64,000 bases of DNA from NCBI RefSeq assembly GCF_039536245.1, contig NZ_BAAAYN010000019.1:1-64000 (forward strand), in the 5' to 3' direction. The stretch comes from Cryptosporangium minutisporangium. Its GTDB lineage: Bacteria; Actinomycetota; Actinomycetes; Mycobacteriales; Cryptosporangiaceae. The notes below the pieces were generated by a model. It had not been told where the DNA came from. It was given only the letters and a program-made list of their open reading frames with translations, and did not search any database. Shown piece by piece: positions 24,784 through 29,986 of the stretch; within the stretch, counting starts at the first letter, position 1; every line of letters begins with the position of its first letter. The translations under genes were made by a program, and so were the position numbers.

Positions 24784-24961
24784 GCGCGGCTCCTACTCAT
24801 CGGCGTGGGGTGCTCCGACGCTATGGAGAGCCGGTCGCCCGGACATCGCTCGCAGGGAATGACTGCCGGATGGTGAATCGACCGGACGTGTCGCCGCACT
24901 GAGCGAGTTGTGCGCCCGGTCGCGTGTTCCTCGATGTCCGGCGCGGAGAGCGCGAGATCCG

Positions 24962-24977
24962 CCCGCTGGGGATGAGG
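24962..24977 (+). promoter_or_regulatory. CCTCATCC-type element (half-conserved)
   Basis: CCCGCTGGGGATGAGG, 54 bp upstream of the chosen SHOCT start. The GGGATGAGG arm matches the dyads at 20795 and 23961; the left arm is poor. Confidence 0.3.
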
Positions 24978-25031
24978 CGGTACCGGCCGCATCCGCGCAA
25001 CGCTGCAATTCGTCGACGGGAGGAGGCCGAT

Positions 25032-25274
25032 GTGCGGTTGGTGCCCAGGCAGTTGCTGCGTGCGGGGATGACCGGCGATGTGCCCTACTACGGCGGACGC
25101 ATGACACCGGCCCAGGCGTACGCCGCGTCCCACCCTCCGCCGCCTCCACCCGCGCCGGCACCACCGGTGGCGAGGAGTGGGCCTGATCCACTGCTGGCGC
25201 TCCAGCACTTGCTCGACACCGGCGTGATCACGACCGAGGAGTACCGGCAGTTCTGCGCCCGGGTGCGTCAGTGA
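25032..25274 (+). CDS. SHOCT-domain protein
   Basis: An 80-residue protein. GTG 25032 is chosen for its GGGAGGAGG ribosome binding site (25018-25026) with 5-nt spacing; earlier in-frame starts at 24924 and 24972 lack one. A poly-Pro/Ala linker separates the N-terminal part from the C-terminal SHOCT helix hairpin (LLALQHLLDTGVITTEEYRQF), a module that mediates interactions or membrane association. The stop overlaps the next start (TGATG), so it begins a tight operon with a DUF6325-like gene and two further small stress-type genes. Confidence 0.8.
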   Translation: MRLVPRQLLRAGMTGDVPYYGGRMTPAQAYAASHPPPPPPAPAPPVARSGPDPLLALQHLLDTGVITTEEYRQFCARVRQ

Positions 25275-25756
25275 TGGCACCGGTGCAGGTGCTCGTCGTG
25301 GGTTTCGACCGCCCTGCGTTCTCCGGCGAGGTTCTCGCCGAGCTCACCCGGCTCCGGCACGCCGGGATCGTCCGCCTGATCGATCTGCTTCTCGTCGCGC
25401 GGGCGGCGGACGGCACGCTCGAAACGCTGACCGCGCCGGCCGGCGTCGGCGCGGGCCTCGGTGGACTCGCCATCAGGCTTCTCGCCCGGCCTGAGGTCGA
25501 GGCCGACGGTGAGGAGCAGGGGCCCGAGTCCGACCCTTCCGGTACGTGGGCGTGGTCTCTGGCCGATGCGGTGCCGGCCGGCTCCGCGGCGGCCGTGGCG
25601 CTGATCGAGCATCTGTGGGCCGAACCCTTGGCGGCCGCGATTCGGCGCGCCGGTGGTACGTCGCTGAACGAGACCTGGCTGGCGACCTATGACCTGGCCC
25701 GGCTCGAGGCCCTGGTCGCGCAGCGCCCGACCAGCGACGTGTCGATGTCGCAGTAA
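25274..25756 (+). CDS. DUF6325-like protein
   Basis: A 160-residue protein: APVQVLVVGFDRPAFSGEVLAELTRLRHAGIVRLIDLLLVAR is the DUF6325 opening, followed by a Gly/Ala-rich helix, an acidic loop and AAVALIEHLWAEPLAAAIRRAGG. ATG 25274 overlaps the SHOCT stop; GTG 25271 would add one residue. Paralogue of the gene at 12622, which is shorter. Members often neighbour SHOCT proteins in actinobacteria; function unknown. Confidence 0.8.
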   Translation: MAPVQVLVVGFDRPAFSGEVLAELTRLRHAGIVRLIDLLLVARAADGTLETLTAPAGVGAGLGGLAIRLLARPEVEADGEEQGPESDPSGTWAWSLADAVPAGSAAAVALIEHLWAEPLAAAIRRAGGTSLNETWLATYDLARLEALVAQRPTSDVSMSQ

Positions 25757-25779: not shown

Positions 25780-26240
25780 ATGACCACGAAGGATGCGTTC
25801 TCCCCCGAGGAGTGGAAGACAGTGCTGGAAGGTCCACCGGCCGCCGGCATGATCGTGATCAGTGCCGCTCGTGGCGGCACGATCCGCGAGACGATGGCGA
25901 TGGCCAAGGCCTACGCCGAAGCACGCGCCGAGCACGGCCAAAGCGAGCTGCTCGACGAGATCGTGGCGGCCAAGCCCAAGGCTGACCACACCAGGTACCA
26001 CTCGTACGACGAACTCCGGAACCACGGCCTCGGACACCTGCGAACGGCAGTGGCTCTGCTGGAGCGCAAGGCAACGGCCGACGAGGTGGACGGTTACCGG
26101 CGCTTCGTTCTCGCCGTCGCGAACAAGGCCGCGGCCGCGCACCGCGAGCACGGCCAGATCGTGAGCCCGGCGAGGCCGCCGCCATCGACCAGGTCGCAGC
26201 GGCGCTCCGCCCGACCGACCCCGAAGCGTCTCGAACCTGA
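25780..26240 (+). CDS. Hypothetical stress-island protein, disrupted by an apparent 1-nt frameshift
   Basis: The first ~128 residues (TTKDAFSPEEWKTVLEGPP, VISAARGGTIRETMAMAKAY, HTRYHSYDELRNHGLGHLRT, RRFVLAVANKAAAAHREHG) form a coherent helical protein. At about 26168 the frame changes to Pro/Arg-rich nonsense, while the next frame continues naturally (GEAAAIDQVAAALRPTDPEAS) to a TGA at 26238-26240. One base appears missing after 26168. Without correction the frame runs on into the next gene and would make a 342-residue fusion. The ribosome binding site GAGGAGAGGAG precedes ATG 25780. Sequencing error, true mutation or -1 frameshifting are all possible. Confidence 0.7.
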
Positions 26241-26268
26241 TCGTTCGAATGAGCAAGGAGGGATGGGA

Positions 26269-26808
26269 ATGGCTGTCGACACTTTCCTGGCCTACGTCGG
26301 GGTGTACCGGAGAGTCGAGGATGCCGAGGCGGACTACGACCTGGTGCGGGATCTGCACCGCAAGGTCGGGCTGATCGACGCCTATGACGCCGCCGTGATC
26401 GAGCGACGCGCCAACGGCAAGACGAAGATCGTCAAGAAGCACGAGACCCCGACCCGCGTCGGTGGGGCGCTGGGCAGCGGCTTCGGTCTCGCCACTGGTC
26501 TGGTCGTCGCGCTGTTCCCGTTCGCTGCGATCGGCGGCGGCCTGCTGGCGGCCACCACTGCCGGTGGCGCAGCGCTCGGTGCGCTGGCCGGCCACGCAGC
26601 GGCCGGAATGAGCCGCAGCGATCTCAAGGAACTCGGCGAACACCTGGACGCCGGGACCGCCGGGCTGGTGGTCATCGCCGTGTCCGACATGGCGTCGAAG
26701 GTCGAGCGCGAGATGCGCCGCGCCGAGAAGGTGGAGGCCAAGCAGCTCAAGGCTGACACCGCTGAGATCGAGCAGGACGCAAAGGCGGCCGGGGCCGGGC
26801 AGGCGTAG
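26269..26808 (+). CDS. DUF1269-type membrane-associated protein
   Basis: A 179-residue protein. An N-terminal ferredoxin-like part (AVDTFLAYVGVYRRVEDAEADYDLVRDLHRKVG) leads to a Gly/Ala-rich hydrophobic double segment (about 68-107: GLATGLVVALFPFAAIGGGLLAATTAGGAALGALAG). The C-terminus is charged and helical, rich in Lys/Glu. ATG 26269 has AAGGAGG (26255-26261) with 7-nt spacing; ATG 26263 is too close. It has its own good ribosome binding site, which argues that it is a separate gene and not the natural tail of the preceding frame. Function unknown. Confidence 0.8.
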   Translation: MAVDTFLAYVGVYRRVEDAEADYDLVRDLHRKVGLIDAYDAAVIERRANGKTKIVKKHETPTRVGGALGSGFGLATGLVVALFPFAAIGGGLLAATTAGGAALGALAGHAAAGMSRSDLKELGEHLDAGTAGLVVIAVSDMASKVEREMRRAEKVEAKQLKADTAEIEQDAKAAGAGQA

Positions 26809-29275: not shown

Positions 29276-29986
29276 ATGCCTGAGCGGGAGAGTGTCATCA
29301 GAGGCCTCATCGAGGCCCAACCCTCTTCGCCGGGCACGAGAGGGACCTTGCTGCGCATCTGCCGAGCCGCCTCGGAGGCGCTCGCCGCGTCGGGGACCGG
29401 GGTCAGCGTGTTCACCGCGGGTGCCGACCGGGGAGTGTGCGCCGCCTCCGACTCACGGAGCGAGCGGCTCGAGGAGCTGCAGTTCGTTCTCGGGGAAGGC
29501 CCGTGCATCGATGCCTTCGACAGCCGCCGCCCGGTACTCGTCGCTGACCTCACCGAGGACGCGACGGCCCGATGGCCGATGTACGCACCCGCCGTGCACG
29601 GCCGGGGTGTCCGGGCCGTGTTCGCTTTTCCCCTGCAGATCGGCGCGGCTCGGCTCGGTGTCTTCGACGTCTTCCGCGATCAGGTGGGTGCGCTGTCCAC
29701 CGAGCAACTCGTCGACGCGTTGACCTTCGCCGACGTCACCGTCGCGGTCCTCCTCGACGAACAGGACGGGCTCGGCGGCGCGGGCGGTGAGGACGTCACC
29801 GACGCGGTCGAGCATCGGGCGGAACTATTCCAGGCTCAAGGGATGGTGATGGTGCAAATCGGCGGGACAATCAGTGAGGCCATGGTCCGCATGCGGGCGT
29901 ACGCGTACGCCGAGAACCGTGGCTTGAGCGAGATCGCCCGCGACGTCGTCGCCGGGCGTCTGAGGTTCGATCAGGGCGATTCGTGA
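29276..29986 (+). CDS. GAF and ANTAR domain protein (first of tandem pair)
   Basis: About 236 residues. The GAF domain (about 10-150) includes FVLGEGPCIDAFDSRRPVLVADL and VFAFPLQIGAARLGVFDVFR, the usual heme/ligand-pocket style of actinobacterial GAF proteins. The C-terminal ANTAR domain (FQAQGMVMVQIGG, EAMVRMRAYAYAENRGLSEIARDVVAGRL) binds RNA hairpins and acts as an antiterminator. The start is uncertain: GTG 29237 and GTG 29267 are alternatives and no ribosome binding site is strong. Followed 37 bp later by a similar gene. Confidence 0.88.
   Translation: MPERESVIRGLIEAQPSSPGTRGTLLRICRAASEALAASGTGVSVFTAGADRGVCAASDSRSERLEELQFVLGEGPCIDAFDSRRPVLVADLTEDATARWPMYAPAVHGRGVRAVFAFPLQIGAARLGVFDVFRDQVGALSTEQLVDALTFADVTVAVLLDEQDGLGGAGGEDVTDAVEHRAELFQAQGMVMVQIGGTISEAMVRMRAYAYAENRGLSEIARDVVAGRLRFDQGDS

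Follow-up and report, generated by a model that had tools for sequence, protein, structure and literature searches.

The open reading frame at 25780-26808 on the forward strand very probably joins two genes that are normally separate, through a net loss of one base, whose source would be a genuine indel of very recent date or else a consensus error of the draft assembly. Between these two sources, our confidence is divided about evenly. The window, meaning the whole stretch of 64,000 nucleotides analyzed, is taken from contig 19 of the draft genome of Cryptosporangium minutisporangium (9.23 Mb in 152 contigs), and its features are collected in Table 1. Gene 1 normally encodes a free-standing protein of about 150 residues with a conserved helix at its C-terminal end, and it is followed here by a short gap and then a separately initiated DUF1269 gene, gene 2. 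With one base net lost near 26166-26170, translation in frame 0 would bypass both the final helix and the stop, pass through a linker, and enter gene 2 in frame, while gene 2 could still be started from its own ATG.

Table 1. Features around the junction of gene 1 and gene 2, in window positions
Feature	Position	Strand	Comment
SHOCT-like gene	24924..25274	+	SHOCT E 0.0057, under cut-off
DUF6325-like gene, upstream	25271..25756	+	20.2 bits, under cut-off 23.4
Gene 1, frame 0 part	25780..26169	+	130 codons, MTTKDAFSPEEW...HGQIVSP
Change of the conserved frame (CCCGG)	26166..26170	+	C_CCG tetramer at 26166-26169
Rest of gene 1, -1 frame, GEAAAIDQVAAALRPTDPEASRT, then TGA 26238-26240	26169..26240	+	alignment, codon bias, profile
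AAGGAGG, likely ribosome binding site of gene 2	26255..26261	+	read directly
Gene 2, DUF1269 (PF06897)	26269..26808	+	start ATG 26269 from relatives

Results

The site of the frame change

The initial annotation had placed the loss of the natural frame at about 26168, with plausible sequence continuing one base back to a stop at 26238, and the sequence, the alignment, a profile, and codon bias all agree with that reading. Frame 0 of gene 1 remains in the conserved frame up to about 26168, and from 26169 it is the -1 frame that continues the conserved C-terminal helix to its stop. The homologue-like character of this -1 tail beyond chance is confirmed: on a C-terminal profile of 15 columns, built from the ends of 17 homologues, it scores 15.7, compared with -17.5 for frame 0 and -14.2 for frame +1. 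The homologues themselves score 12.8 to 23.5 when included in the profile and 6.2 to 21.1 when left out one at a time. No shuffle of the tail among 100,000 reaches 15.7, and of the 106,031 stop-free 15-mers in the six frames of the window the single one to do so is the tail itself.

Codon bias switches frame at the same place as homology. Codon log-odds over 26038-26168 are +14.0 in frame 0 and -21.1 in frame -1; over 26168-26238 they become -6.6 in frame 0, +4.7 in frame -1, and -9.2 in frame +1; and over 26269-26448, within gene 2, frame 0 returns to +26.8. G+C content by codon position in the tail is 0.83/0.65/0.83 when read in frame -1 and 0.65/0.83/0.83 in frame 0, and set against the 0.70/0.48/0.84 of gene 1 before the switch, the -1 reading gives the better fit.

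As written, the reading frame is nevertheless open throughout its 342 codons, with the conserved part of gene 1 making up the first 129 to 130 of these and the DUF1269 protein the last 180 or so. The description of a 342-residue product with a nonsense linker stands for the sequence as given: the linker between the two parts, RPPPSTRSQRRSARPTPKRLEPDRSNEQG, is unlike every aligned homologue, is rich in proline and arginine, and is poor in both codon log-odds and profile score.

Homologues across the junction

Seventeen loci homologous to gene 1, with 27% to 78% identity over the matched part, were aligned across the junction. All 17 carry an xExxAIxxIxxAL-like helix in their main frame, followed by a stop, and none is fused; 16 have lengths of 144 to 162 residues, and the N-terminally partial L018 has 102. 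The proposal of a one-base frameshift joining naturally separate genes is supported by this comparison, and no natural fusion with a similar linker was found among these 17. Two further loci were left unaligned, one cut by a contig end (L012) and one partial (L005, E 8.6e-4); L001, L002, and L095 all represent the copy in the window itself, and L093 and L094 repeat L003 and L004. In a profile search at order level, covering 298 genomes with a profile of 147 positions, the two strongest matches span positions 1-146 and 1-147 in one frame, and on the window the same profile covers 1-131 only. From fourth place on, the order-level matches (E no better than 9.9e-10) were kept out of the alignment.

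Apart from the frame change, no damage to gene 1 was seen, and eight relatives align with it over all 129 of its frame 0 residues, at 60% to 78% identity. Gene 1 belongs to a family that is conserved in actinobacteria and whose members have about 150 residues. Of 396 genomes sampled from the phylum, 10 contain the family, its own genome counted. A single-sequence search gave no match in the three other genomes of the genus; by profile, 52 of the 298 genomes at order level match gene 1 at greater or lesser distance, and one genome of the same genus (G003) has one distant match at 1.4e-4. Record titles of the close relatives include Actinoplanes and Virgisporangium, together with metagenome-assembled genomes of Nocardiopsis, Mycobacterium, and Acidimicrobiaceae. 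Mobile spread of gene 1 was considered and dropped, as the plasmid collection, the phage collection, and the viral contigs searched gave no match.

Pfam and NCBIfam gave no family for the frame 0 part of gene 1 in the window, and the seven members of one gene 1 alignment (A1) produced chance-level matches only, the best being 0.059 (Pfam) and 0.014 (NCBIfam). In PHROGs, four of the same seven members match phrog_19649, of function unknown, at best at 4.3e-5, and in the first member this match spans the C-terminal part. The predicted structure of an intact relative, L006, is helical with a mean pLDDT of 61, its fold comparison gave no PDB match at E <= 0.001, and comparison by sequence gave one weak match at E 0.14. 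Because the model is helical and of low confidence, without a fold match, and the sequence match is weak, no function is read for gene 1.

Gene 2 and the neighborhood

Gene 2 matches PF06897 at E 7.2e-8 with 33.1 bits, above the Pfam cut-off of 26.9, and nothing unusual was seen in it. The motif that had been pointed out as its ribosome binding site, AAGGAGG, is indeed there, 7 nt ahead of the ATG at 26269. Among selected fetched loci, a subset of all gene 2 matches, the nearest gene 2 relatives found, L044 (80%) and L046 (77%), start with MAVDTFMAYVGVY, past the linker, and this aligns with MAVDTFLAYVGVY from 26269. On this comparison, gene 2 is a separate gene with its own start at that ATG. 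One of the two relatives, L046 in genome G439, is itself split over two frames. No literature on DUF1269 together with actinobacteria was found.

The genes scanned around the junction include GH15, SHOCT-like, DUF6325-like, DUF1269, and GAF/ANTAR genes and one with a weak match to STAS. Over 50 residues (21-70), gene 1 resembles the ANTAR part of the GAF/ANTAR protein (29834-29974) at 38% (E 8.9e-4), a similarity that may be chance. In Virgisporangium aurantiacum (L010), the order is a SHOCT-like gene (L010:2305-2517, 62% over 69 residues), a DUF6325-like homologue (69% identity) that adjoins an intact gene 1 on its upstream side, that intact gene 1, and then a gene on the opposite strand.

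Gene 1 and DUF1269 genes can be near neighbors, since in L006 a DUF1269 gene (L006:4320-4706, E 4.2e-37) follows the intact gene 1 homologue at a distance of about 1.8 kb; the two are separate there, with two called genes between them. A tblastn search with gene 2 at E 1e-3 gave no match beside gene 1 in the fetched flanks, the window's own copies aside, and the same search also missed the DUF1269 gene of L006. The junction of gene 1 with gene 2 as it stands in the window was not found at any other locus compared.

Frame switches and isolated N's elsewhere in the assembly

An ab initio scan called eight strict frame switches in this assembly (409.5 kb covered) and four in a control, a genome of the same genus that consists of one contig (400 kb covered), which is no clear excess. 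With simulated losses, the scan found 90 of 150 placed mid-gene and 60 of 150 placed near the 3' end, and it did not call the site at 26166-26170. Since there is no clear excess, sensitivity is modest, and the site itself went uncalled, error-prone sequence in this assembly is not demonstrated. In a sampling of the draft assembly, seven isolated single N's were present in 345.5 kb, in 6 of 20 stretches (L073, L076, L085, L087, L088, and L091), and the control, the one-contig genome, had none in 20 stretches and 400 kb. The window itself has no N, and an N may also mark a left-out stretch and not only an uncalled base.

The eight calls fall in L085 (two), L083 (two), and L091 (one), plus L073, L077, and L092. 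Both calls in L085 are edges of a tandem repeat; at L085:7836-8300 (contig 13), a repeat with an 18-base unit leaves all three forward frames open where displayed (GTDALL, WGRMRC, and AGDGCA). At L083:13631-15630 (contig 11), two possible gene disruptions lie near each other: in the first, the right part is Thiolase_C_1 and the left part, without a Pfam match, is one that we take to resemble the start of a thiolase; in the second, a short-chain dehydrogenase part on the left runs into a CoA_transf_3 remnant on the right. The call in L091 is a broken transposase with an N nearby. The four control calls are in L042 (two), L038, and L024; the two in L042 look like ordinary overlapping genes, and that in L038, whose right part is without a Pfam match, may be a real disruption.

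Discussion

The undecayed tail is compatible with both an assembly error and a genuine indel. The isolated N's of the draft assembly favor a consensus error, as does the expectation, in the GeneTack survey (PMC3711429), that homology-validated singleton frameshifts are sequencing errors. A real indel is favored because frame switches are not clearly in excess in the assembly and because the change lies near the 3' end, where, according to the same survey, a frameshift is likelier to be an indel than in other parts of a gene. The singletons of the survey resemble the present case, which is a homology-validated, near-3' frame change in an otherwise conserved gene of a single genome; they differ in that frame 0 here stays open through the next gene to give a fusion open reading frame. 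We take that open frame to reflect how few stops GC-rich sequence contains, and the event is an ordinary one.

We infer a recent indel or consensus error rather than recoding, although the frame change does coincide with a Z_ZZN tetramer, C_CCG, which is one of two such tetramers in gene 1 (the other is at 25803). Programmed -1 ribosomal frameshifting at this tetramer would have most ribosomes make the fusion and a minority slip back one base to produce the conserved protein, which would have about 153 residues. A slip at C_CCG would give VSP-GEAAAI, which can be compared with VSPGETVAI in L007, and the tail is undecayed. The tetramer provides the likeness to the Z_ZZN systems of PMC4066793, in which C_CCG is reported as a weak motif in E. 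coli, being one of four that, even with the IS3 pseudoknot, reached just 1.8- to 3.6-fold over background. Nor is C_CCG rare in the window: eight of its genes, with 2,096 codon positions in all, have it at 22. The codons at the switch form no X_XXZ_ZZN heptamer. The present site further differs from those systems in that no stimulator was found: the RNA of three stretches around and downstream of the site, compared with shuffles, has z values of -1.04, -0.20, and +0.58 under a model that leaves pseudoknots aside.

None of the 17 aligned relatives depends on a frameshift or shares the frame transition, and slippage would make the normal product the minor one. As C_CCG is weak, the RNA is not clearly more stable than its shuffles, and no homologue has the frame change, recoding is considered very unlikely. 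The same slim chance is given to its corollary, that a weak C_CCG frameshift in a GC-rich actinobacterium could draw both a gene 1-DUF1269 fusion and a free gene 1 protein from one mRNA. Among the three options that the initial annotation had listed, a missing base and a real mutation are therefore both compatible with the data, while -1 frameshifting is at best faintly suggested (a lone C_CCG, no stimulator, and an arrangement that is not conserved).

It could also be argued that gene 1 is an older pseudogene, functionless and decaying, as frame 0 lacks the final helix and the family of gene 1 is patchily distributed in the phylum. The full-length match of its frame 0 residues to eight relatives and the intact coding character of the -1 tail speak against decay, and we regard this reading as highly improbable. 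Because there is no further damage and the tail is undecayed, any loss of gene 1 looks very recent. Least probable of all is a natural fusion protein, in which a real linker would let both parts act as one polypeptide: the uninterrupted frame and the DUF1269 gene downstream of gene 1 in L006 would suit it, but it was rejected on the 17 unfused homologues, and the separate DUF1269 gene of L006, the tblastn result with its noted miss, the start of the nearest gene 2 relatives after the linker, and the poor scores of the linker all point the same way.

In conclusion, an indel or a consensus error best accounts for the reading frame, and the consequences depend on which of the two applies. If the bases are wrong, nothing unusual is present. 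If they are right, the organism would make a gene 1 product lacking its last helix and joined through an unrelated linker to DUF1269, plus a separately started gene 2 product. The case bears mainly on annotation: gene calling on the sequence as given would record a 342-residue fusion that is very probably no natural unit, and would conceal both the conserved family, with its members of about 150 residues, and where the DUF1269 protein truly starts.
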